Source: Gammaproteobacteria bacterium
GTDB lineage: Bacteria; Pseudomonadota; Gammaproteobacteria; Arenicellales; Arenicellaceae
Length of the DNA: 44,951 bases
Assembly: GCA_017854775.1 (NCBI GenBank)
Contig: JAFMHC010000013.1
Span: 1 to 44,951, forward strand
Direction of reading: 5' to 3'
Positions 12,971-42,055 of the stretch are shown piece by piece. The position numbers and the translations under genes were made by a program. The notes below the pieces were generated by a model. The model was given only the letters and a program-made list of their open reading frames with translations, was not told the origin of the DNA and ran no database searches. Each line of letters starts with the position of its first letter. Within the stretch, counting starts at the first letter, position 1.

Positions 12971-13486
12971 GTGAGCATAAGTGTTTCCGATGTAATGAAT
13001 GGCCTTGCTACACAGCAAGTGCATGGTCTAATTCTGATTTTGAAAAAAGCGAAAGAGTACTCTGTAGAGTCGTGCACTGATTATGCCACTCTTATGGATG
13101 CTAGATTACACCCCGATATGTACCCGCTGTCTTGGCAGTTGAACGCTACTTTAGAGATACTCATCAGGGGCTCTGCTCGCTTGAGTCGTGCAGAAGTAAA
13201 GGGACTAACATTAAATGAGGATGAATCTGATTTCGATGGTCTGATTGCGAGTGTAGAGGGTCTTCAACAAAAACTGCTTGGCTCAGACAGTGCTCTGCTT
13301 GATCAAAGTGAGGCTGAAACATTTGATGTTCCCGTTGGCCCTGATGCCTCGATGCCGATGACCGGAAAAGAGTATTTGCTTAAGTTTTTATTACCTAACT
13401 TCTATTTTCATTTAACCACCTCTTATGACCTATTAAGAATGAGCGGCGTCGCGGTTGGCAAGAGAGACTATCTTGGTGTGTCTTGA
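12971..13486 (+). CDS. DUF1993 family protein, 171 aa
   Basis: Start is GTG with GAGAGG upstream. The pattern is that of the DUF1993 family: an N-terminal helix with MNGLATQQVHGLILILKKA, the block LHPDMYPLSWQL, the GSARLS helix, and the C-terminal LLPNFYFHLTTSYDLLRMSG. The fold is expected to be a DinB-like four-helix bundle. No biochemical function is established for the family that I know of. Cytoplasmic; appears monocistronic. Confidence 0.8.
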   Translation: MSISVSDVMNGLATQQVHGLILILKKAKEYSVESCTDYATLMDARLHPDMYPLSWQLNATLEILIRGSARLSRAEVKGLTLNEDESDFDGLIASVEGLQQKLLGSDSALLDQSEAETFDVPVGPDASMPMTGKEYLLKFLLPNFYFHLTTSYDLLRMSGVAVGKRDYLGVS

Positions 13487-23688: not shown

Positions 23689-25569
23689 ATGAAAGACACT
23701 ATTGTACGTGCCGCGATTCATCCCGCGATTGGTATTGCTCGTGTTGGCAACTCGAAGACAGAATTTTACATTGGTCCGGAAGTTATTAACCCAGCGGCGC
23801 AAGACCCTGGTTTCTATCGCGATGATACCGGCGCGTTAAAGCGCGAAGCCGCTCGGTTTAGAGTCTATGGCTACAATGCTCAAGGCGAGGTTGTGCGCGA
23901 ATTAAGCTGCGCTGATGCCGATATCGAATGGCAGGTTCATTTGGCCAATCAAAAGGCATCTTGGTATCAATTTCAGTTAGCCTTGGATATACCTGAAGCG
24001 GTTGCCGCTCCTGACACTGCGTTGCGTAATTCAGATATAAAAGGCAATGATAGAAAAAAACTGCTGATTGATGGCGGTAAGATCTCCATTTCTGGGGCTG
24101 ACCAATCTGGCTCTAAGTACAGGTTTGACAAAGGGCACTTCTTCGATAAGCCAGTCTATCTCGGTGAGTTACAAACACAGGCTGATGGTCAGTTACTGGT
24201 GCTCGGTGGGCACGGTCACTCGGCTTCTGTTGATGATAAACGCGCAACTACCTTCGCCAATAATAACGGCTGGCACGATGACACTAGCGATGGGCCGGTA
24301 ACTGCTAGGGTATCGATTGATGGTCAAGAACTGATTGTCGAGCCAGCATGGGTTGTGGTCGCCCCACCTAATTATGGGCCATTGCAAAAGTCAGTTAGGA
24401 CTATGTATGACCTAATCACTGACGTGCAAACTCAATCAGGATTGCTAGACCAGCCCGAAACCGTTTCATTTTCTAACGACATTATGCCGTTGTTTTTACG
24501 CATGAGTAACCTTGAGTGGGTGAACAAAGGGTATGCCACACAGTTCGGTTGGGGTGGCCCTCAGTATTTTCAGTCTGAAGCGTTATTAGCGCAATTAGGC
24601 GACGGATCAGATTTGTTTAAAGAGCTGCGTCAACAAACCGCCAATATGTTTCGAGAATTTAAACGTGATGGCAAAGCCCCTCAGCCATGGCCATGGTTAT
24701 ACGGCGACGCCATGAGTGTGCCGCCAGCGGATACACCACGACAACATGCTACCGTCACCGATACTCAATTAGCTTTGCTGCAACGTTGGGCCGAGGGCGA
24801 TTTTATCAGCGACTATGATCCTTCCTCGCAGTCGCCTCGAGAGCTGTGTGATGTGCCCTTGCAGGAACAGCCGAGGATGCTCGATCAAGCGGCATTAGAA
24901 TTTTGTTTAGCCGATGCGTTCCACCCGGGTTGTGAGATGACTTGGCCTATGCGTCATGCGAGTATGTATATGAGTGAATATCGTATTCGACACCGTCGAA
25001 GTAGCCAAGCCGTGCCCAACTACGGGTCGTTACTCACCCCCGACGTAGCTGTCTCTGAGCAAGGGCCACTTTACGCCCAGTCAGCGGGCGATATTACTCG
25101 CTGGATGGCGGTACCTTGGCAAACTGACACGGCAAGCTGTAAGTATGGGTATTACGCTGGCTACGGCCCTAAGTATGATCCGTATTTGCCGACCTTCTGG
25201 CCAGCTCGTGTACCGAATCAAGTGCTTACTGAGAGTGACTATGATCTGGTCATGGACGAGTCAGCGCCGAAAGAACAACGTAGCCAGGCATTTAATCGTC
25301 GAGATGATTGGTTTCGCACCCTAGGTGATGGTGGATATGTAGATCAAATTAACAACATGATTCACCACTTCGATAAAATGGGTGTGGTTGAAACTCGCAA
25401 AGGGCCTAGTGATGGATTGTTTCCAACTACCTTACAGGTCGAACATCGTGATTTAGATGCCATAGCGACTAACCAAACCTTTAGGGCTAAATCTACTGGT
25501 GGTGAAGATAAGGCTGAAGAAGATATCACCGCCATCGATAAATATAAGCGGTTTCCGAAAGGCTTATGA
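23689..25569 (+). CDS. LodA/GoxA-family CTQ-dependent amino acid oxidase
   Basis: The family signature opens the protein (IVRAAIHPAIGIARVGNS) and continues with FYIGPEV, GHGHSAS, the block ADAFHPGCEMTWPMRHASM, MAVPWQTDTASC and PTFWPARVPN. These oxidases use a cysteine tryptophylquinone made from a Cys and a Trp of the chain; Cys415 and Trp477 are 62 residues apart, close to the 65 of Marinomonas LodA as I recall it, so they are the candidates. Known members oxidise lysine at the epsilon amine (LodA) or glycine (GoxA) and release hydrogen peroxide and ammonia. No signal peptide, as in LodA. The stop overlaps the next start by four bases, so the LodB-type partner is translationally coupled. Substrate unknown. 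Confidence 0.9.
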   Translation: MKDTIVRAAIHPAIGIARVGNSKTEFYIGPEVINPAAQDPGFYRDDTGALKREAARFRVYGYNAQGEVVRELSCADADIEWQVHLANQKASWYQFQLALDIPEAVAAPDTALRNSDIKGNDRKKLLIDGGKISISGADQSGSKYRFDKGHFFDKPVYLGELQTQADGQLLVLGGHGHSASVDDKRATTFANNNGWHDDTSDGPVTARVSIDGQELIVEPAWVVVAPPNYGPLQKSVRTMYDLITDVQTQSGLLDQPETVSFSNDIMPLFLRMSNLEWVNKGYATQFGWGGPQYFQSEALLAQLGDGSDLFKELRQQTANMFREFKRDGKAPQPWPWLYGDAMSVPPADTPRQHATVTDTQLALLQRWAEGDFISDYDPSSQSPRELCDVPLQEQPRMLDQAALEFCLADAFHPGCEMTWPMRHASMYMSEYRIRHRRSSQAVPNYGSLLTPDVAVSEQGPLYAQSAGDITRWMAVPWQTDTASCKYGYYAGYGPKYDPYLPTFWPARVPNQVLTESDYDLVMDESAPKEQRSQAFNRRDDWFRTLGDGGYVDQINNMIHHFDKMGVVETRKGPSDGLFPTTLQVEHRDLDAIATNQTFRAKSTGGEDKAEEDITAIDKYKRFPKGL

Positions 25570-26702
25570 TCGACCCTAAAGCCAACTCTAAGACCGTCGG
25601 CGTCGATGTCTTGATCGTCGGTGGTGGAATGGCTGGTTGTGCGCTTGCCTATGCTCTTGCTCATAAATATTCTGTTTTGGTGTTGGAAAAAGAGCCTGAA
25701 ACGTCGCGGCAAGATCGCATTGGTGAGTCGCTACCAGCAGCGGCATTGCGCTCATTAAAATCCCTTGGCTTGAGCGATACAATTGACCAGTGTGCGCATA
25801 GTGATTACCACGGTGTTGTGTCAATTTGGGGGCAAAGTAGGCCTATCAGAAAAGATTTTTTTGATACGTTAGATGGCTCAGGCTTACATGTTGATCGCGG
25901 TTTGCTAAACCGCGCTATTAAAAAAGCAGCTGTTGGTGCTGGCGTCGGCTTTATTCAGGATGCTCAGCTAAGCTCTCTTTCGAGCAATAATGACGACTGG
26001 GCGGTTGAGGTCGACCGCACTGATGAGCATTATCATATTCAGGCGCGTATTGTCGTTGATGCCAGTGGCAGGGCTAGCGTTGTTGCACGAAAGCTGGGCA
26101 TGAGACGGGTTAATACCGATCGCGCTGTTGCTATTCATGCACAATGTACTCGAATGAAAACCGACCAAACGTTGCCACAGCTAAACTATCAAGGATCAAC
26201 CTTGATCGAAGCTGTCGAGAATGGTTGGTGGTACCGCGCGCCGCTGCCTAGCGGGAAGTATATTATTTCATTTCACACAGATAGTGATCTACCAATCACT
26301 TCTTTTATGCAAAAACCGGGGGTTTGGTTAGACGCGTTGCGATCAACTAAACTTATCAATAATGGCGTTGAGTTATCCCAAGAAAGTGCTCTAAAATTAG
26401 CGGTGTGCGCCGCTAATAGCAGCTTTCCGAGGCAATGCGCAGGCGATAATTGGCTAGCAATTGGCGACGCCGCTTTAGCATTCGACCCTTTATCGTCACA
26501 AGGCATGTTCAATGCGCTAACGACAGCTTTGTTGGCCAAACAGGCTATTTATGAAGTCTTGGATGGTAATTCTGATGCGACTGCGAGCTACGCTCGAAAA
26601 ATAGCTAGGGTTTGTAATGCATATCAACAAAATTTAACTGAGTTTTACCGAACAGAAGTGCGCTGGCGAGAAAGCCTTTTTTGGAAGCGCCGATTGGCTT
26701 AA
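25566..26702 (+). CDS. LodB-type FAD-dependent maturation protein
   Basis: A Rossmann FAD motif lies at residues 14-25 (VDVLIVGGGMAGCA) with the second FAD motif IGDAALAFDPLSSQG near residue 300. The overall form is that of the tryptophan-halogenase-like flavoproteins, to which LodB belongs. In the known system LodB is needed to form the tryptophylquinone cofactor in LodA. The gene starts inside the stop codon of the lodA-type gene (ATGA overlap), which supports the pairing. It lacks the lysine-containing extra motifs I would expect of a real flavin halogenase, though I did not align it. Confidence 0.88.
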   Translation: MIDPKANSKTVGVDVLIVGGGMAGCALAYALAHKYSVLVLEKEPETSRQDRIGESLPAAALRSLKSLGLSDTIDQCAHSDYHGVVSIWGQSRPIRKDFFDTLDGSGLHVDRGLLNRAIKKAAVGAGVGFIQDAQLSSLSSNNDDWAVEVDRTDEHYHIQARIVVDASGRASVVARKLGMRRVNTDRAVAIHAQCTRMKTDQTLPQLNYQGSTLIEAVENGWWYRAPLPSGKYIISFHTDSDLPITSFMQKPGVWLDALRSTKLINNGVELSQESALKLAVCAANSSFPRQCAGDNWLAIGDAALAFDPLSSQGMFNALTTALLAKQAIYEVLDGNSDATASYARKIARVCNAYQQNLTEFYRTEVRWRESLFWKRRLA

Positions 26703-29488: not shown

Positions 29489-30091
29489 CTAGAAGTAGAT
29501 TTTGACGATTTGAAAACATCCAAAGTATAGAAAAAATGCCCCAAAGACTTTATTAATCGAAGCCTCTTTGGACTGAATAAAGCTATATACGTTTTTATAT
29601 CGCAGTATCGAACTTATAAAAGAAAACCAGATAAAGGTTACTACAGGGACTGAAATAATAAGAAAAAATATTGATTTATCCATATTCTTTGGCAAATTAG
29701 CCGAAAGTATTGCTAGATAAAACAGGGCTGCTTTAGGGTTTGATAATGTAACCCAAAGCCCTTTATAAACTCCTCCAAATAAAGCTGCGTTGTTCGGATT
29801 CGCGCTAGAACTAAAAAGCCCAAATGATTTTAGTCCTAGATAGCATAAGTATAGGCCCCCACATAGTTTAAGCAGGTATAAAGCCTGTGGATAAGTGTGA
29901 AAGACCCTTTCAATACCGAGCAGAGCACCAAATACCCAAAAGCCATTTCCAATAGCTATTCCTAAGATAAATAAATAGATGCTTTTATTCTTATTTTTTA
30001 ATAAGGAAGCCTGAGATACAGCCACGAAATCTGGCCCCGGGCTGACAATACCCGCTAAGGCAAGTATTGTCAGATAAATAAGTGATTCCAT
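29489..30091 (-). CDS. LysE/RhtB-family amino acid exporter
   Basis: The 200-residue protein has about six hydrophobic segments and the family signature at the N-terminus: LALAGIVSPGPDFVAVSQAS. The middle block GLWVTLSNPKAALFYLAIL is also typical. LysE-type carriers export basic or other amino acids, or unusual amino acid derivatives, across the inner membrane. It is the last gene of the halogenase operon (13-base gap to the GFA gene), so the likely role here is to export the product of the pathway. Substrate is inferred from context only. Confidence 0.88.
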   Translation of the reverse strand: MESLIYLTILALAGIVSPGPDFVAVSQASLLKNKNKSIYLFILGIAIGNGFWVFGALLGIERVFHTYPQALYLLKLCGGLYLCYLGLKSFGLFSSSANPNNAALFGGVYKGLWVTLSNPKAALFYLAILSANLPKNMDKSIFFLIISVPVVTFIWFSFISSILRYKNVYSFIQSKEASINKVFGAFFLYFGCFQIVKIYF

Positions 30092-30104: not shown

Positions 30105-30518
30105 TTATTCTGGAAACTGTTTAAATTTAATTGCTGTGCTTATTCGCGCTTCCCAATCGGTAATTTCTTGGCAAAATATATTGACCGTCTCTATCTGACT
30201 CGGCTCATCAGATAGCGATCCGGCGGGTATAATATATCGACTACAATCCGAAGTTAGAAATGGTAAGCCACTTCCACAGATTTGACAAAAAGCCTTTGTG
30301 AAATCTCTATTCGGATATTTGTAAATCACCACCTTGTCTTTGCCTTTAAGCCATTCTAGGTGCTTTTCTTCAATGAAAAAATTCGATGCAAAAGCGCTAC
30401 CAGATATCTTCTTGCATTGTGTGCAATGACAAATATATGCCTTGGTAAAAGAGTCGTTGACCACATACTTTGTATTGCCACATAAACAGCTGCCCTGTAA
30501 TTTGGTGCTCATCATCAA
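30105..30518 (-). CDS. GFA-family zinc protein (glutathione-dependent formaldehyde-activating type)
   Basis: Zinc-binding cysteines are present in the usual arrangement: SCLCGNTKY, then CHCTQCKKISGS, then FCQICGSGLP. GFA (Gfa/CENP-V) proteins bind zinc, and the founding member was proposed to speed reaction of glutathione with formaldehyde, though many members have other roles. The start ATG overlaps the porin stop by four bases, so it is translationally coupled to it. In an operon with a BesC-type enzyme, which would release formaldehyde, a formaldehyde-handling role is plausible. Confidence 0.85.
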   Translation of the reverse strand: MMMSTKLQGSCLCGNTKYVVNDSFTKAYICHCTQCKKISGSAFASNFFIEEKHLEWLKGKDKVVIYKYPNRDFTKAFCQICGSGLPFLTSDCSRYIIPAGSLSDEPSQIETVNIFCQEITDWEARISTAIKFKQFPE

Positions 30519-31681
30519 AAATAAAATCCAATGTTTATGTTTACTCTATGATCTAGCGAAGTTGAACCGTTGAGACCGACTCCTGGGCCATTAACAAAAA
30601 AAGAGTTATTGCCTGATATCAATTCGGAAAAAATCAATAAAGGACCTTTCTTTATCGAGCACCCCAATAAATTTTGAGTTGTATCATTACCCACATTCTC
30701 GCTATCTCTCTTGGGAGAAATAATTCCCCAATTGTTGTAACAACTTAATTCATCTATAAAGCCTATAGAGCTCGTATCTATTTTCCTTTCTATATTTAGC
30801 AACAGAAAATCGGCGTTGCTAGCTACATGAAATCTAGTACCAAACGCTCCAAAAAGTACTTGGTCAGAACTTACTTCATCTGAGTTTTTTGTATCAAAAT
30901 CATAAGTACCGATCTCTATTTGATAGTTCCATTTATGATAATTGTAGCTGGCGTGTATAGCTTTAATATCCTGACTACCGGAGCGACGAGTATCTTCATT
31001 GAAAATATCTCCGTATTGAGCAGACGCTCCTAGTGATAAATTCCCAAATTTCTTTTCAATACGAAGGTTCCACTGATTCTTTTCATAGTTAGCTTCTCTC
31101 TCGTTAATATCGGCAGTTGCGATGTCATCCTGTCGAGTGACGAGATCAAACGAGAATCGATTTTCTTGGCTCTTGGATAGTTCTGCATTTTGATAAAAGG
31201 CGGCGATCAGTTCAAGGCCATTATTGTTGTAGATGTATTTAGCACCAACGTCATTGTCATCATCAAGGCCTATATGGTACAGAAGGCTTTCCCAGTAACC
31301 ATGTGAAGAAAATGGCTGTAGACCAAAAGGGACTCTGTTTAAGCCAAACTCAATTCGATTATTAGTGTCAATATCGTATCCAAGATAAGCATATTCGGGA
31401 AAATTGAAATCTTCATACCATCGATATTGAGCATAAAATTCTATATCTGATACTCGGCCCTCAACTTTTATTCGAAACAACTCAAAGTCTAATGCGCTTG
31501 AGTTGCTCTCATAGCTTTTGTATTCGTAATTGAATCTAGCTGCACCGCCAATCTTGACAAAATCCTTAGACTTTCCATCTTTACCTAAGTCTGAGTTAGC
31601 GCTCTCAGCATGCGTAAGCGAACAGCCCATTGAAAAGGCAAAAGCGCTTATCAACCATGCATTTTTTAATACTCTATGCAC
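30515..31681 (-). CDS. Outer-membrane porin-like protein
   Basis: The start is GTG at 31681 with AGGAG upstream, inside the end of the hydroxylase gene (8-base overlap). A signal peptide (MHRVLKNAW ... CSLTHA) is followed by amphipathic strands typical of a 16-strand-type phosphate-selective or alginate-export porin (KIGGAARFNYEYKSYE, IEFYAQYRWYEDFNFPEY, RIEFGLNRVPFGLQPF). It ends in the aromatic NINIGFYF, the expected barrel signature. It would let substrate or product cross the outer membrane. Specificity cannot be read. Confidence 0.78.
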   Translation of the reverse strand: MHRVLKNAWLISAFAFSMGCSLTHAESANSDLGKDGKSKDFVKIGGAARFNYEYKSYESNSSALDFELFRIKVEGRVSDIEFYAQYRWYEDFNFPEYAYLGYDIDTNNRIEFGLNRVPFGLQPFSSHGYWESLLYHIGLDDDNDVGAKYIYNNNGLELIAAFYQNAELSKSQENRFSFDLVTRQDDIATADINEREANYEKNQWNLRIEKKFGNLSLGASAQYGDIFNEDTRRSGSQDIKAIHASYNYHKWNYQIEIGTYDFDTKNSDEVSSDQVLFGAFGTRFHVASNADFLLLNIERKIDTSSIGFIDELSCYNNWGIISPKRDSENVGNDTTQNLLGCSIKKGPLLIFSELISGNNSFFVNGPGVGLNGSTSLDHRVNINIGFYF

Positions 31682-32558
31682 GTTTTCTCCTGTACGGATA
31701 AAATTGCTGTTTTAGAATGCTAGTCTGTGAAATATCATCGGCTCCATACTCACCTTTTATACCTATAGGTGACTTAAAGGTTCCGAAAATTAGGTCCCAG
31801 AACATAAAGACTTCTCCAAAATTTACTCTGTCATCAGAAATCGTATGGTGTAAGGCATGAACCGGCGGAGACCCAACTATGTAGGCCCATAATGGAACCT
31901 TGGTCCAATTTAATTCAATATTTGCGTGAGACACATATCTAGCCACCAATGAACCAGGAATATAGTAATAAAGATAGGCTTCAGTACTGGCGCCCAGCAT
32001 GTAAAAAATAATCACGGTGGTTACCTCTTGCAGAAGAAACCAGTCGATTAAGTTAGTTCTATCGGCCGCGAAGATATTCATCTTTGTCGAACTATGATGG
32101 GTTTTATGAAAGCTCCACCAAAAATCAAAGCCATGCTGCCCTCTATGTATCCAATACTGTTTAAAATCAACAATAACGAGTAGAAGGAGCCCTTGAATTA
32201 ATATGGGTACATTATTAGCGCTTAACCCCCAGCTTACCGATCCAAAGTAAGTTAATATTAGGGGAAGAAAGGATATGACAACTAAGTGTTTGAGTAACAG
32301 GTAGGTGATATTCATTACGTTATCGTTGTTGGCGATATGTCCGTAGTCGCTTCTAGGCTTAAATTTCTCTAGCGCGAGAAATATGAGAACTGCAAGTATT
32401 TCGATTACACCGCTCATACTCGGTTGAAACAAATGCACAACCCCAATCGAGAAGATCATCATTGCCGTTCTAATGTACAGCCCAAACTTACTTGGCGTAA
32501 CGTAACGGTTAATCAATATTAGCGCCACTACAAGCGAGATATCTACTAAAATTTCCAT
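31674..32558 (-). CDS. Sterol desaturase/fatty acid hydroxylase superfamily membrane diiron enzyme
   Basis: Four or more hydrophobic segments surround a full set of histidine motifs: HRGQH (138-142), HKTHH (151-155), His211 in VSHAN and HALHH (234-238). These eight or so histidines bind two irons in the sterol desaturase/alkyl hydroxylase superfamily, which inserts oxygen or desaturates unactivated C-H bonds at the membrane. The gene lies between the diiron lyase and porin genes in the halogenase operon, so it is a candidate tailoring enzyme on the amino acid product or a lipid conjugate. Substrate unknown. Confidence 0.88.
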   Translation of the reverse strand: MEILVDISLVVALILINRYVTPSKFGLYIRTAMMIFSIGVVHLFQPSMSGVIEILAVLIFLALEKFKPRSDYGHIANNDNVMNITYLLLKHLVVISFLPLILTYFGSVSWGLSANNVPILIQGLLLLVIVDFKQYWIHRGQHGFDFWWSFHKTHHSSTKMNIFAADRTNLIDWFLLQEVTTVIIFYMLGASTEAYLYYYIPGSLVARYVSHANIELNWTKVPLWAYIVGSPPVHALHHTISDDRVNFGEVFMFWDLIFGTFKSPIGIKGEYGADDISQTSILKQQFYPYRRKRA

Positions 32559-32589: not shown

Positions 32590-33345
32590 TTAGTTGGATA
32601 GTAGCTTCTCTACACCGTTCCAATAATCTTCGAGAAGAGATAGAAATTCATTTACTCCTTCTTCGAATTCTTTCTTTGTCTCAGGTGAATGAACATACGG
32701 CGCAATAGCGTTGAAAACCGAATTGCTATGTCCAATTTCGACTTCAATGTGCATCTCCCAAAAGCTTCTTACTAGCGCGTCGTGTCCTTGATTTTTTAGG
32801 CCGTCATTTAATTTCGATACCATAATAGAAGACATTGTTTCATCTGCGTATAATGCGCCCAATGATTTTTCTATACTGCACTCTGTATATAATTTTCTTA
32901 TGCCGTCGTTTAACTTTTTAGTTACCTCTAAAGGCTGATAAGACAAAACTTCATCGTAGTCCATATCAAGTTTGCTCATAAAACTTTTATAAATACTTGA
33001 ATGAGTAATTTTGTGCCCAACTTCGTCATAAACGTTTAGCACAATCTCTCTCAGAATATTTTCATCTCTTGTTTTATTAGCCATTCCAGTAATATAAAAA
33101 GGCAAGTACTGAAAAAAGTAGAAACACTCCGAGTAAAGCTGCTTTTGTTGAAGATCGCTTAATTTATTCTCTCTATAATAGTTTAAGAATTTATGCTCTA
33201 CACCTGGATGCGCTAATATTCCAACCAAAATATCGTCTAAGTATTTTTTGATTTCTGGCGCTACTCCAGCTTCTCTTGAGCGAACTTGTTGAGGCGTATT
33301 GTCCCATTTATCGGTGGCGTTAGATTCGACTGTTTGTAATGACAT
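32590..33345 (-). CDS. BesC-type heme-oxygenase-like diiron oxidase (HDO)
   Basis: I choose ATG 33345 (AGGAA eight bases upstream), giving 251 residues; the frame extends 26 codons further without support. The all-helical chain carries the full diiron ligand set of the HDO superfamily (UndA, CADD, SznF, BesC): Glu108 and His111 in YDEVGHK, Glu169 in YADE, and His199, Glu203, His206 in HIEVEIGH (H-x3-E-x2-H). BesC cleaves 4-chlorolysine to 4-chloroallylglycine with loss of ammonia and formaldehyde. The gene directly follows the BesD-type halogenase (38-base gap), as besC and besD are neighbours in known clusters, so a BesC role is the best guess. Other HDO reactions remain possible. Confidence 0.82.
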   Translation of the reverse strand: MSLQTVESNATDKWDNTPQQVRSREAGVAPEIKKYLDDILVGILAHPGVEHKFLNYYRENKLSDLQQKQLYSECFYFFQYLPFYITGMANKTRDENILREIVLNVYDEVGHKITHSSIYKSFMSKLDMDYDEVLSYQPLEVTKKLNDGIRKLYTECSIEKSLGALYADETMSSIMVSKLNDGLKNQGHDALVRSFWEMHIEVEIGHSNSVFNAIAPYVHSPETKKEFEEGVNEFLSLLEDYWNGVEKLLSN

Positions 33346-33383
33346 AATTGAGTTCCTATTAATTAGTGTTGGTATAAATAGCG

Positions 33384-34118
33384 TTAAACTTGTATCGCTG
33401 CCGGTGCATTCTCGTTTTCCCACCAGCGATCTACGCCCACGTCACTTAAATCGCTTGCGCTAACATCGCCCCAAGTCATATTTAGCATCACTCTTGTTGC
33501 ATCTTGGCTTAGAGGTATCGTTCGATGTAAAGTCGTGTCTGATCTCAACAAATACACATCGCCCGACTCAAAAGCGTATGTATTGATCTCGTTGGAGCTA
33601 AGATAGCGATGTATTTTAGGTTCTTCCTTGTTCCAATCGGTATGAGGTACGCACTGCAATAGACCACCAATTTCAATATCAGGTGTTTCCAAAACCCATA
33701 TCAATGCGAAGCTATAGTCACCCCAGTGCCAACCATGGGTATCGCCCTTTTTTTCATGGCGGGTGATTAGAAATTCTTCATCTTTGCTTGGGCAAGGGTG
33801 AAATTTTTCGCCTGCTATTTTTTCCAACATTTCAGTCAGCGACGGGCTCTCATAAACAGATCTTATGTGTTCGCTGTTGTCTGAAATATTCTCGCTAGTA
33901 ACAACCGACATGTAACGAGGAGTATTATTAGTAGTTTCTAAATGAAGATCTCTTCTTTCTGAGTGATCAGCCAATAACCGGTCAGCCTCCTCTCTCATGT
34001 CAGACTTGGTCGTTGACGTAAGCAAATCAGTTACTTTTACAAATCCGTATTTTCTGAAATTTTGCGAGTACTTTAATAGTTCGTCATCGGTTTTTTTTTC
34101 TAATATGTCCTTCTGCAT
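33384..34118 (-). CDS. BesD-type Fe(II)/2-oxoglutarate radical halogenase
   Basis: The 244-residue protein starts with AAAGGAG six bases upstream. Iron-site region HGWHWGDYSFALIW has His131-Trp-Gly133, where ordinary hydroxylases have His-X-Asp/Glu. The distal histidine is His198 (TTLHRT) and Arg209 (ATRVMLNMTW) should bind 2-oxoglutarate. Loss of the carboxylate leaves room for chloride, the hallmark of this halogenase class. The 67-residue spacing between the two histidines equals that of BesD (His137, His204; Gly139, from memory). BesD and relatives chlorinate free lysine or similar amino acids. GGLLQCVPHTDW also fits the family. It is the first full gene of the operon. Older annotation would call it ArpA or phytanoyl-CoA dioxygenase-like. 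Confidence 0.85.
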   Translation of the reverse strand: MQKDILEKKTDDELLKYSQNFRKYGFVKVTDLLTSTTKSDMREEADRLLADHSERRDLHLETTNNTPRYMSVVTSENISDNSEHIRSVYESPSLTEMLEKIAGEKFHPCPSKDEEFLITRHEKKGDTHGWHWGDYSFALIWVLETPDIEIGGLLQCVPHTDWNKEEPKIHRYLSSNEINTYAFESGDVYLLRSDTTLHRTIPLSQDATRVMLNMTWGDVSASDLSDVGVDRWWENENAPAAIQV

Positions 34119-34738
34119 TTAATACTCCTTTTAGTCGATTAAGTGTGGTGTGCTAATTTGATTCTGATTTATAGGGTTAAAACCGATCAGCGGGTGCCTA
34201 ATCTCCGTACAGATAGAGTCAAGTCCGTATATATGCCGACGGCTATGTCGCTATATCTGGTCTCCCTGTAATTCTAAATAGTTCGACAAAAGAAGCCGTA
34301 CGTCTTCAATCTCTCGTTTAGAAACCTTGAAGCACATTATTTAGCGTGTGCGGAAAATACATCCGCCAAAATTTTGAACAACTTCGCTGTTGTCTCATCG
34401 CAAAAACGGTCTCGTCGTTGCATAGCTAAAGCTTAAAATCTGTCTGTAAATTTAATCTTTAATTTACCTACGAGCTAAACCAATCCCTCGCGTCCATTTG
34501 CTATTTTCCTTTATGTTGTTTGACGTCATGCCAGTTGCCTGAATCCCAGGCAAAGAAAATATCATTAATTTAAAATTTCGTGGCCATTCCCTACTGTTTC
34601 GGATATGCCGTAACTACGCCGCGGTTATTGGCACGCTCAATATGTACGTTTCAGTAGAAGCTGATCTATACCATCCTTTTTAGTGGGTGAGTCATGGCAA
34701 GCAAAACACTCTAGCGATGCGAGTTTTAACACACCAAA
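34119..34738 (-). other. Long leader of the halogenase operon with decayed coding remnants
   Basis: About 620 bases between the short ORF and the halogenase start. Minus-strand frames contain broken stretches such as FFAWDSGNWHDV and, near 34340, a 28-codon ATG frame beginning MCFKVSKREIEDVRLLL, but none is intact or clearly started. A small hairpin (GCGGA / TCCGC) lies near 34360-34380. This looks like a deleted or decayed gene. Confidence 0.35.
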
Positions 34739-34834
34739 TTATTTTCTAATAAAGTTATATCTTGGTGTGCTAGCCATTTGCCACAAGGCCCACTCAGGTA
34801 AAATCCCTCGTGTTATCGTAAGTGTTAATGGCAT
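34739..34834 (-). pseudogene. 31-codon ORF with strong ribosome site, probably a truncated gene start
   Basis: GGAGG lies eight bases before ATG 34834, just downstream of promoter B. The product starts MPLTLTITRGILPE, which resembles the opening of small tautomerase-like proteins, then runs into unrelated residues and stops. It is either a gene broken early by deletion or frameshift, or a leader peptide for the halogenase operon. The tautomerase likeness is weak. Confidence 0.4.
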
Positions 34835-34893
34835 TTCTTGTTCCTCCAAATATATAAAATTTTGTTTGATTAGGTAGTTAACGATCATTGGCG

Positions 34894-34980
34894 TTAAAAT
34901 AACGACCGATATCTAATTGCTTTTTACTATATGTAGGGGCGCATATTTTGTCAATAGGTAAATAACGACTGCTATGTTAG
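34894..34980 (-). promoter_or_regulatory. Promoter B of the halogenase operon with two operators
   Basis: On the minus strand, TTGACA (34954-34949), a 17-base spacer and TATAGT (34931-34926) form a near-consensus sigma-70 promoter. Operator-like copies flank it: ATAACGACTGCTATGTTAG ends upstream of the -35 (34957-34980) and ATAACGACCGATATCTAA lies downstream of the -10 (34894-34916). The same arrangement occurs at 36321-36406. Confidence 0.7.
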
Positions 34981-35241
34981 CGGGCAAGTGTGACGTTGTC
35001 GCGTTGTTGCAACGAAGTACCAAAACCACGCAGAAGTTAATAAAATGGAGTGCATTCAGTACTAAAAATTTTCACTGCCCGGTGTTATTGAGGATGCTAC
35101 AAAATGTTAAGTCCTCTATAAATTTATCAATAGGGCGATCCATAACCCGTTTTCACTACGCTGTTTTATCTCCGTAAGCTCTAAATATATATAGCTGCCG
35201 AGTAAGTTGGGCGTAGGTTTATTGTAAATAATGAAATAAAT

Positions 35242-35283
35242 AAAAAAGCCTATGACACGAGAGTACATTCCCCTGTCATAGGC
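35242..35283 (-). terminator. Rho-independent terminator of the 229-codon-frame exported-protein gene
   Basis: A perfect 10-bp stem (GCCTATGACA at 35248-35257 with TGTCATAGGC at 35274-35283) is followed on the minus strand by a run of six T and AT-rich sequence. It lies 80 bases after the stop of the gene at 35365. Confidence 0.85.
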
Positions 35284-35364
35284 CGGTAAATCAGATCGAC
35301 GGATTGGTTAGTTATCTATAAACCCTCTATCTATCTTTTGCACAAAATAATTGTTGAGTCGCTT

Positions 35365-36039
35365 TTAGTGGCCTTGGTTAGGAGCGGGGTGGTATAGAAT
35401 TTGCAATGTTTCGCAAGCAAAGCCCGATTGATCGTCAGTTTCGCAACCGCCGTTGAGACTATTAATTTGCTCGCCAAGAGTTTGCGCGTCATCAAAAACG
35501 CCAGGTCCGTGGGTGCGAACGAATAGTTGGTATTCCGCTTTTTTAGGAAAAACGAGTCCTTCTTGAGTGCCAAGTGGCATTACAGCATGGCTCAATTCGC
35601 CAACGCCTAAGCAAAAATTGAGATTAGCCTTTTCATTCGGCCCTACGATTACGGGGGCGGCCCACATGAGTGTACCGCGAGTTAATGGATTATCAAGGTC
35701 AGCCATTCCGCATTTTTGCCCATTTCCAAATGGATTTGGATTACTGCAGTTAGATGGCTCATTAAATATCATCCACCAAGTAGTGTTTACTCCTTGCACA
35801 ACCTTGGTGTTAGCAGTCAAACATGCGCCTGAATTTGTAATTTTTAGTTTGGACTTTGATTTTCGAACGGCTGATTGTGACGTAAGGTCCCAAAATTTAG
35901 CGGTTCGAATGTCGCGATTATGGCTATGCTTTGAATAGGAAAGGGAACTCAATTCGTCGCCTTGTGGTTGTTCGGCGACGGCACTTTGTAAAACGAACAG
36001 CGCGGTAAATGCGCATGCGACCTTAATAATAGTTTTCAT
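35365..36039 (-). CDS. Exported hypothetical protein, 224 aa
   Basis: The start is ATG 36039 (GGAG nine bases upstream); the frame is open five codons further. A signal peptide ends in SAVA. The mature chain has SGACLTANTKVVQGVNTTWW, then IFNEPSNCS, CGMADLDNP and WAAPVIVG, a pattern seen in uncharacterised secreted proteins in which a TVWWVVFN-like strand precedes N-C-S and C-G-x-x-D-L motifs. Cysteines are probably paired. It is preceded by promoter C, which has the same operators as promoter B, and followed by a strong terminator, so it is a single-gene member of the regulon. Confidence 0.7.
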   Translation of the reverse strand: MKTIIKVACAFTALFVLQSAVAEQPQGDELSSLSYSKHSHNRDIRTAKFWDLTSQSAVRKSKSKLKITNSGACLTANTKVVQGVNTTWWMIFNEPSNCSNPNPFGNGQKCGMADLDNPLTRGTLMWAAPVIVGPNEKANLNFCLGVGELSHAVMPLGTQEGLVFPKKAEYQLFVRTHGPGVFDDAQTLGEQINSLNGGCETDDQSGFACETLQILYHPAPNQGH

Positions 36040-36320: not shown

Positions 36321-36406
36321 CCAAATAACGAACGATATCTAAGATGGATCAACTATAGGCAGTGATATTCATCTTGTCAATATATAAATAACGAACAATA
36401 TGTTAG
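36321..36406 (-). promoter_or_regulatory. Promoter C with two operators
   Basis: On the minus strand, TTGACA (36380-36375), a 17-base spacer and TATAGT (36357-36352) match promoter B. ATAACGAACAATATGTTAG (36388-36406) lies upstream and ATAACGAACGATATCTAA (36325-36342) downstream. The distances from each box equal those in promoter B within a few bases. Confidence 0.7.
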
Positions 36407-38398: not shown

Positions 38399-38513
38399 AC
38401 TTCCTGTGAAAACACCTTAAGACTTCCTGTGAAAACACCCAAACACTTCCTGTGAAAACACCCCAAGACTTCCTGTGAAAACACCCTAAGACTTCCTGTG
38501 AAAACAACCTAAG
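38399..38513. repeat. Five 23-bp tandem repeats
   Basis: Units begin at 38399, 38422, 38445, 38468 and 38491, each exactly 23 bases. All share ACTTCCTGTGAAAACA; the last seven bases vary (for example CCTTAAG, CCCAAAC, CCCCAAG, CCCTAAG, ACCTAAG). There are no spacers, so it is not a CRISPR. If promoter D is correct, the array lies in the 5' leader of the NHL-protein mRNA, where the minus strand reads TGTTTTCACAGGAAGT with a Shine-Dalgarno-like AGGAAG in each unit. Confidence 0.95.
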
Positions 38514-41519: not shown

Positions 41520-41606
41520 TTGGCGGCCAGATACTAATCTATCTGGTCGCCAATTCTAGCTTCTACTAGTGAATATAATTTGAATTGATTTTATTGGCGG
41601 CCAGAT
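41520..41606 (+). repeat. Three copies of a 13-14-bp element able to form alternative hairpins
   Basis: TTGGCGGCCAGATA at 41520-41533 pairs with its inverted copy at 41540-41553 (one G-T pair, 6-base loop). A third, direct copy TTGGCGGCCAGAT at 41594-41606 can pair with the same inverted copy. The two stems exclude each other. The first is a strong stem but lacks a T-run. It sits between the cytochrome gene and gloA. Confidence 0.75.
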
Positions 41607-41656
41607 GTTCTGTATTAATTGACAGGCGCCGCCATGGAGTCGGATGGAAGGGTTAC

Positions 41657-42055
41657 ATGAGAAGAATACTTCACACCATGATTCGAGTGGGAAATATGGC
41701 TGATTCAATTGCTTTTTATACTGATGTTATGGGTATGAAATTGCAGAGAAAATTTATCCAAGAGGAAGCGGGCTATGAGCTTGCTTTTGTTGGTTATGAA
41801 GAGGAAGAAAATGGGTTTGTAATTGAGCTCACACACAATTTTGGCGTATCTGAATATGACTTAGGCGATGGCTATGGACATATCGCGATAGCGGTAGACG
41901 ATTGTTATCAGGCTTGTGAGAGGATAAGAGAGAAAGGCGGTGAAATAATACGCGATGCAGGACCATTGAAAGGCGGTGAGGAAATCATCGCTTTTGTAAA
42001 AGACGTAGATGGATACAAAATTGAGTTAATAGAACGACCTAAGCACTGGTTTTAA
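41657..42055 (+). CDS. gloA: Lactoylglutathione lyase (glyoxalase I)
   Basis: I start at ATG 41657 (GGAAGGG upstream); the frame is open 24 codons further. The 132-residue protein has all four metal ligands of GloA: His6 in ILHTMIRVG, Glu in VIELTHN, His in GYGHIAIAVDD and Glu in YKIELIE. It converts the methylglyoxal-glutathione adduct to lactoylglutathione in the cytoplasm. Its place among transport, ligase and cytochrome genes suggests protection against a reactive aldehyde made by the pathway. It differs from the 27548 homologue, which lacks the first His. Confidence 0.88.
   Translation: MRRILHTMIRVGNMADSIAFYTDVMGMKLQRKFIQEEAGYELAFVGYEEEENGFVIELTHNFGVSEYDLGDGYGHIAIAVDDCYQACERIREKGGEIIRDAGPLKGGEEIIAFVKDVDGYKIELIERPKHWF

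Follow-up and report, generated by a model that had tools for sequence, protein, structure and literature searches.

A BesD-like halogenase gene beside a BesC-like diiron enzyme gene in a very probably Gram-negative host

Main

The Fe(II)/2-oxoglutarate (2OG) enzyme BesD, a lysine chlorinase, and the diiron enzyme BesC, a 4-chlorolysine lyase, are encoded side by side in the actinobacterial bes cluster and its relatives. In all eight such loci that we collected, the gene order is besD, besC and then a pyridoxal phosphate (PLP) enzyme gene of the Cys/Met type (besB), and an ATP-grasp gene (besA) lies within ~2 kb of this block. Related halogenases are found outside the actinobacteria, and PfHalA, PkHalD and PrHalE come from Pseudomonas. 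These BesD-family halogenases of free amino acids have already been reported in an excerpt of PMC8407142, and BesC is stated to release formaldehyde and ammonia in an excerpt of PMC13108848. A BesD-kind halogenase in a Gram-negative host is not new; the unusual part of the locus described here, a besD-like gene followed by a besC-like gene on contig JAFMHC010000013.1, is a BesC partner without BesB. We analysed the whole contig (44,951 bases; the window), which belongs to a 381-contig, 4.86-Mb assembly with an estimated completeness of 92.7% and contamination of 4.21%. The enzymes are of known kinds, and their combination and host are new within the searches made.

Results

The BesD-like and BesC-like proteins

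The besD-like gene, for a BesD-like Fe(II)/2OG lysine halogenase of 244 amino acids (33384..34118, minus strand), and the besC-like gene, for a BesC-like heme-oxygenase-like diiron oxidase (HDO) of 251 amino acids (32590..33345, minus strand), both start with ATG and are separated by 38 bases (33346-33383), with besC-like downstream. Both ATG codons are preceded by a ribosome-site-like sequence, AGGAA in the case of besC-like. The listing of open reading frames (ORFs) also gives besC-like an alternative GTG start at 33423, which would lengthen it and make it overlap besD-like.

We compared the BesD-like protein with solved structures using phmmer. BesD itself was the top match in the PDB (6nie, E 1.3e-89), followed by a lysine halogenase (9oer, 1.2e-73), Halogenase B (7u6i, 1.2e-68) and a lysine hydroxylase (7jsd, 5.4e-62). 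Identity is 56% to 6nie (135/239 columns, ungapped alignment) and 57% to S. cattleya BesD (tblastn), and the HalD Pfam family PF23169 matches at 4.1e-90. The iron site reads HGWHWGD (H131, G133) together with H198, Gly replacing the Asp/Glu iron ligand. A structure prediction was poor (mean predicted local distance difference test score, pLDDT, of 64.7) and was not used.

A maximum-likelihood tree of 22 rows places the BesD-like protein with the nine BesC-partnered BesD rows, which stand for eight loci plus 6nie (96/90), and the next branch is the lysine halogenase/hydroxylase pair 9oer/7jsd (94/93). It occupies a branch of its own, of length 0.74, outside the actinobacterial BesDs; several other rows are long, which leaves the deeper branches unsure. 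HxD takes the place of the halogenase motif in 7jsd and in eight other relatives in the tree, BesD-family proteins from plasmids and same-class genomes that all lie outside the branch of solved enzymes, 7jsd being inside it. We class the predicted 2OG protein as BesD-like. As a separate observation, PMC10187165 assigns BesD to Streptomyces lavenduligriseus in the excerpt used here, and in our tree no branch length separates 6nie from the S. cattleya protein.

Excerpts of PMC13244439 report that the exchanges D142G/N149I/V223N convert a related hydroxylase into a halogenase, and name BesD residues that contact or influence lysine. We transferred the residue numbers of that source to the BesD-like protein by subtracting 9 in the ungapped alignment. 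The three hydroxylase-to-halogenase positions are in the BesD state (G133, I140 and N213), as are R77, E123, H137, D143 and K173 (R68, E114, H128, D134 and K164) and H207, R218, D239, R240 and W241 (H198, R209, D230, R231 and W232). Thirteen named positions that determine lysine binding or chlorination (3 + 10) thus carry the BesD residue. Among the Chimera14 positions of the same source, L148, I149, T217, N222, M223 and T224 are common to the BesD-like protein.

Among solved structures the BesC-like protein matches BesC best (7twa, phmmer E 2.9e-97), the second match in the PDB reaching only 1.5e-6. Identity is 61% to 7twa and ranges from 58 to 62% against eight actinobacterial BesCs. The expected diiron ligands E108, H115, E169, H199, E203 and H206, which were assigned by family motif rather than by observation of the metal, are invariant in all nine aligned BesC sequences and align with the E/H/E/H/D/H of a related enzyme, 9pj4. 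Block 162-178 (LGALYADETMSSIMVSK) is also invariant in 9/9. A model built from an eight-sequence alignment (mean pLDDT 79.8) matched the four chains of 7twa best in Foldseek, with template modelling (TM) scores of 0.91-0.92 by target length, and CADD next (0.77-0.85); the predicted protein has the heme-oxygenase-like fold and the 3H/3C diiron ligands. The BesC tree does not fix its point of attachment. We class the predicted HDO protein as BesC-like, and the pair shows the sequence features of a lysine chlorinase of the BesD type and a 4-chlorolysine lyase of the BesC type.

An earlier note on this DNA had described an adjacent pair 38 bases apart, with a Fe/2OG halogenase iron site in one protein and all six diiron ligands in the other. 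The gene coordinates agree with that description, the iron site is borne out by H131-W-G133 with H198, and the six ligands by motif-expected residues without variation. The note had also named two groupings as speaking against its reading. Neither was seen: the 2OG enzyme does not group with the hydroxylase 7jsd in the tree, and BesC is the closest relative of the HDO protein in both sequence and fold. The observation of the pair is correct. Chance similarity or an ORF artefact is ruled out by the E-values, the tree and the conserved gene order.

Distribution of the pair and its host

We searched for further BesC proteins in genome samples of increasing breadth, which overlap. At E 0.001, 99 other relatives, 17 of them from the same genus, gave no match, and neither did 368 further genomes of the class or 397 of the phylum at 1e-20. 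A two-peptide-pattern scan of the contigs of 84,980 species, which can overlook relatives that differ in both patterns, returned 84 candidate stretches; the seven that could be confirmed all come from actinobacteria (four from Streptomyces, two from Frankia and one from Actinomadura). A genome contig scan with patterns from less conserved stretches confirmed none. The plasmid collection added S. cattleya (two records) to the BesC loci, and a distant HDO in Burkholderia glumae with 23.5% identity. Phage records held no BesD match at 1e-5, and two scans of viral contigs with short BesC pieces confirmed no relative. Within these searches, the BesC-like protein of the window is the only non-actinobacterial one found, and no Gram-negative besD-besC pair came up in the literature listings and excerpts consulted.

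In the eight actinobacterial loci, Pfam families were assigned on S. cattleya and one Frankia member and the remaining loci were covered by blastp; the names BesA, BesB and BesE follow position and family, the S. cattleya stretch being without annotation in PLSDB. At least three of the eight (S. cattleya, S. triculaminicus and Actinomadura) gave matches at 1e-15 to a putative BesE (2OG family) and to an EamA transporter.

The host of the pair is very probably Gram-negative, a call that draws on a RecQ-like helicase of the window with matches in Pseudoalteromonas and on a weakly matched porin-like barrel in the operon described below. Of 351 helicase matches in plasmid records, the eight listed, which are the best-covered, are Pseudoalteromonas, at 62-64%. 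A pseudouridine synthase of the window pointed to no clear host. Full-length orthologues of the helicase at 79-83% occur in three of 17 same-genus genomes searched, and the other 14 gave partial matches of ~40% or none at that threshold. A misbinned contig was considered and is very likely not the explanation, given these same-genus orthologues. An 874-aa flanking protein has no match in 25 relatives at 1e-30, which suggests that much of the contig is accessory.

Several BesD- and HDO-family loci came up in these searches as observations in their own right. The 368 other class genomes held three other BesD-family matches, all HxD and of hydroxylase type. One same-class genome (L045, 2561-8991) has a BesD-family HxD protein in a row with FA_desaturase, Nudix, GARS-like ATP-grasp, aminotransferase and EamA transporter genes, and is thus another case of a BesD-family gene beside a membrane diiron-type enzyme. 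On a Roseomonas mucosa plasmid (L054, 3037-10178) a BesD-family (HxD) gene, with transposase genes of the IS66 type upstream, immediately precedes a non-ribosomal peptide synthetase gene. The B. glumae HDO gene (L056, 2867-8594) lies with aminotransferase, flavin adenine dinucleotide (FAD) oxidoreductase, TauD dioxygenase and ATP-grasp genes, in a locus that resembles an uncharacterised cluster for an amino-acid natural product, and the same plasmid carries a BesD-family gene ~19 kb from it.

A probable six-gene operon with four additional genes

The pair opens a run of six genes in one direction, besD, besC, FA_hydroxylase, barrel-like, GFA and LysE/RhtC-type, spaced by 38, 31, -8, -1 and 13 bp in that order, and we infer that they are co-transcribed. 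The third gene (31674..32558, minus strand) encodes a 294-aa integral-membrane diiron protein of the FA_hydroxylase/sterol-desaturase family (PF04116, 7.6e-25; 88.3 bits against a cut-off of 31), not of PF00487 (FA_desaturase). Its histidine boxes are complete (HX3H at 138, HX2HH at 151, HXN at 211 and HX2HH at 234). Nothing in the PDB matches it at E 1, and matches in 62 of the 99 other relatives reach only 22-33% identity. The fourth gene (30515..31681, minus strand) overlaps the third by 8 bases and encodes a 388-aa outer-membrane β-barrel/porin-like protein (Porin_4, E 5.8e-4, below the Pfam cut-off) with no match in 25 relatives at 1e-5. The fifth encodes a 136-aa GFA/CENP-V family zinc protein (30105..30515, minus strand; PF04828, 1.5e-23; 83.5 bits against a cut-off of 24.3), whose ATG at 30515 overlaps the stop of the barrel-like gene by one base; its PDB matches are 8ajq (6.9e-06) and the GFA structure 1x6m (0.017). 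The last (29489..30091, minus strand) encodes a 200-aa LysE/RhtC-type amino-acid exporter (PF01810, 6.2e-30; TIGR00949, 8.2e-30, below cut-off), matched in 17 of 25 relatives at 24-34% identity. Phyllobacterium likewise has a BesD-family (HxD) gene followed by a LysE gene, the LysE proteins of the two loci sharing only a 12-residue match (E 0.78).

None of the last four genes has a homologue in the eight actinobacterial loci (17-25 kb each, 1e-4). Mean GC content of the operon is 0.384, against 0.440 for 27 other window ORFs, a comparison that left out two ORFs of more than 150 aa (12971-13486 and 41585-42055). The low GC of the six genes, together with FA_hydroxylase, barrel-like and LysE proteins without close counterparts in the relatives searched, fits an operon taken up as a single unit from a source of low GC, and not from Streptomyces in recent times.

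The last four genes might instead have nothing to do with the amino acid, the FA_hydroxylase and barrel-like genes forming a lipid or envelope modification set that is co-transcribed by chance with general genes. The membrane protein does weakly match the ornithine-lipid hydroxylase OlsE (72.8 against 475 bits), and members of the GFA and LysE families are common and vary in function. We nevertheless consider this very unlikely, because the spacing is very tight, with two overlaps, and because the lack of close counterparts and the low GC of the group point to a single acquired unit. The earlier note had placed the pair in a different operon from that of S. cattleya. The neighbours do differ; the four downstream genes, which it left unused, add hints of export, formaldehyde handling and possibly an extra oxidation.

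No alkyne-forming half found in the assembly

We searched the contig and the source genome for the remaining bes enzymes. BesB is absent from the contig, and in the source genome four places match the BesB model over short stretches, the best with 52 bits over 135/511 positions, as would be expected of ordinary PLP enzymes. BesA is absent from the contig and has no match at E 1 in the source genome; BesE, for which the search was limited to the contig, has no match there. In a control run with local hmmsearch, not with the tool used for the genome search, models from which Frankia had been left out recovered the BesB (666-688 bits) and BesA (476-494 bits) proteins of Frankia, so orthologues at a comparable distance should have shown if present in the assembly. 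What the earlier note had said of the missing genes holds for BesA and BesB on the contig and in the source genome, and for BesE on the contig.

These searches also bear on whether an alkyne could still be made. 4-Chloroallylglycine might be converted to the alkyne amino acid propargylglycine by an unlinked host PLP enzyme, a role for which the four short BesB-model matches are candidates, or by the membrane diiron enzyme, were this to work as an oxidase of the acetylenase kind, since fatty-acid-desaturase-like membrane enzymes can be acetylenases according to an excerpt of PMC13185094. We think this quite improbable: the source genome yielded no BesB orthologue, whereas besB is adjacent in all eight other loci, BesA has no match, and the membrane protein belongs to PF04116 rather than PF00487.

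A proposed pathway and the evidence that weighs on it

Taken together, we consider it fairly probable that the operon turns free L-lysine into an unsaturated, chlorinated amino acid and exports it. Judged from sequence, the BesD-like enzyme would chlorinate C4 of L-lysine using Fe(II), 2OG, O2 and chloride, and the BesC-like enzyme would then cleave the C4-C5 bond to give 4-chloro-L-allylglycine, ammonia and formaldehyde. With no BesA or BesB orthologue in the assembly, the usual elimination of chloride to an alkyne would not be expected and the chlorine should stay. Since BesC is reported to release formaldehyde, the GFA gene suggests that its product may handle or buffer this by-product. LysE-family carriers export amino acids, and the LysE/RhtC-type gene suggests export of the free amino acid, possibly with the barrel-like protein; both of these roles are proposed from gene order. 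Least certain of all, the membrane diiron hydroxylase may oxidise the product or a linked lipid or envelope component. The product would most likely be 4-chloroallylglycine or an oxidised derivative of it, not an alkyne, and may act as an antimetabolite. With no alkyne-forming enzyme and different neighbouring genes, the end product probably differs from that of the actinobacterial pathway.

Several observations weigh against this reading. The BesD-like protein scores 358.9 bits against a cut-off of 450 for the NCBI equivalog NF042920, which all four actinobacterial BesDs tested pass (the Frankia ones at 453.6 and 457.9), so that this cut-off separates the window protein from them. The BesC-like protein reaches 372.3 bits against a cut-off of 500 (NF042919), a strict threshold given that two of four actinobacterial BesCs, both from Frankia and both in loci with besD, besB and besA, also fail at 452-454. 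K120 of BesD corresponds to S111, and the Chimera14 residues S216, I220, A226 and K231 to A207, M211, G217 and S222, 6nie itself having T, I, A and L at these positions (PMC13244439, in part). BesD-family enzymes are described as also accepting ornithine, leucine and others in an excerpt of PMC8407142, BesC as also fragmenting lysine itself in an excerpt of PMC10187165, and identities of 54-62% leave room for a change of substrate. The GFA protein scores 19.8 bits, far below the cut-off of 234.55 for S-(hydroxymethyl)glutathione synthase (TIGR02820); an excerpt of PMC4682968 has Paracoccus GFA binding glutathione with no speed-up of the reaction with formaldehyde, and the lack of a GFA homologue in all eight actinobacterial loci, over the stretches compared, implies that such a gene is not needed in general. 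Finally, in an assembly that is 92.7% complete, besB could lie in a gap.

Some of these points would also fit a different substrate, with the 2OG enzyme chlorinating or hydroxylating another basic amino acid, such as ornithine or a modified lysine, which the diiron enzyme then cleaves to a product other than 4-chloroallylglycine. The separate branch, the variation of substrates within the family (PMC8407142, in part), the differing residues named for BesD or Chimera14 and the HxD state of the three other class matches all lean this way. We regard it as unlikely, however, because the protein has the BesD residue at all three halogenase-defining exchange positions and at ten more of the named ones, and because a BesC partner with an invariant block 162-178 is present. 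The preferred reading of lysine chlorination and cleavage might be extended to a second kind of bes pathway, in which the membrane diiron oxygenase replaces BesB/BesE and oxidises 4-chloroallylglycine, a dedicated GFA protein takes up the formaldehyde that BesC sets free, and a new chlorovinyl amino acid leaves the cell by way of the LysE carrier; this extension is tentative and rather doubtful.

If true, a Gram-negative pair without the alkyne enzyme would mean that chlorination and fragmentation can work as a module of their own and supply other chemistry. The diverged BesD and BesC proteins, about 56-61% identical to known ones, may be of use for making halogenated and unsaturated amino acids, and the pair together with GFA offers a testable case of a formaldehyde-releasing pathway that carries a candidate protection gene of its own. 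If a free amino acid is indeed its substrate, the membrane diiron enzyme would be an unusual tailoring enzyme. An unrelated halogenase, SecA, is the subject of PMC12171316 in the excerpt used here.

Upstream region and neighbouring genes

A promoter-like site, TTGACA-17-TATAGT (34926..34954, minus strand), lies ~0.8 kb upstream of besD with 11/12 consensus matches. It is a consensus match only, in a region with 13 such sites, fewer than in shuffles (mean 20.8). Repeat comparison found a 20-bp motif on either side of it, the two copies being spaced by 63 bp (34897..34980, no strand assigned). A second such pair lies at 36323-36406, ahead of the next gene (36054-35365), giving four copies in all; both pairs have the 63-bp spacing and flank promoter-like sites with the same two hexamers, and the blocks that carry them are 66% identical over 159 columns. 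The motif would be expected 0.06 times by chance, for a pattern derived from these very copies. Rfam gave no RNA family in the window at the gathering threshold or in 34000-35500 at E up to 1, and hence no known lysine riboswitch. A leader ORF upstream of besD (ATG 34834) was considered as the start of a decayed tautomerase gene, but it has no Pfam match and the idea was dropped. Further away, a tandem array of five 23-bp units (ACTTCCTGTGAAAACACCNNAAG-like) at 38399-38513 lies just upstream of a 464-aa ORF (38390-36996).

About 3 kb from the operon, 23689-26702 encodes a LodA-like cysteine tryptophylquinone (CTQ) amino-acid oxidase (PF17990/PF18417) and a LodB-like flavoprotein partner. The oxidase is similar to GoxA and to L-lysine 6-oxidase, and LodA enzymes make hydrogen peroxide from amino acids.

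Comparison with known systems

The window pair keeps the order of the first two genes of bes and related actinobacterial besD-besC-besB clusters. Those clusters have BesA and BesB, whereas the source genome yielded no orthologue of either and the contig no BesE; where they differ, the window operon carries FA_hydroxylase, barrel-like, GFA and LysE genes. With BesD (6nie), the BesD-like protein has in common 56-57% identity, the HxG site, the 13 named residues and the besD-besC order; it departs from BesD in falling below the equivalog cut-off, in its separate branch, in a few named residues and in its very probably Gram-negative host. With BesC (7twa), the BesC-like protein shares 61% identity, the six expected diiron ligands, the predicted fold and a besD neighbour, but it lacks a downstream besB, is followed by a membrane diiron hydroxylase gene and scores below its equivalog cut-off. 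The BesD-family halogenases HalA, HalB, HalD and HalE are Fe/2OG halogenases of free amino acids, as is predicted for the BesD-like protein, although 7u6i (Halogenase B) and 7u6h (Halogenase D) fall outside the BesC-partnered branch that the BesD-like protein joins. The GFA protein has the PF04828 domain and the cysteine pattern of the GFA/CENP-V family, and the characterised Paracoccus GFA is only distantly related to it (E 0.017).

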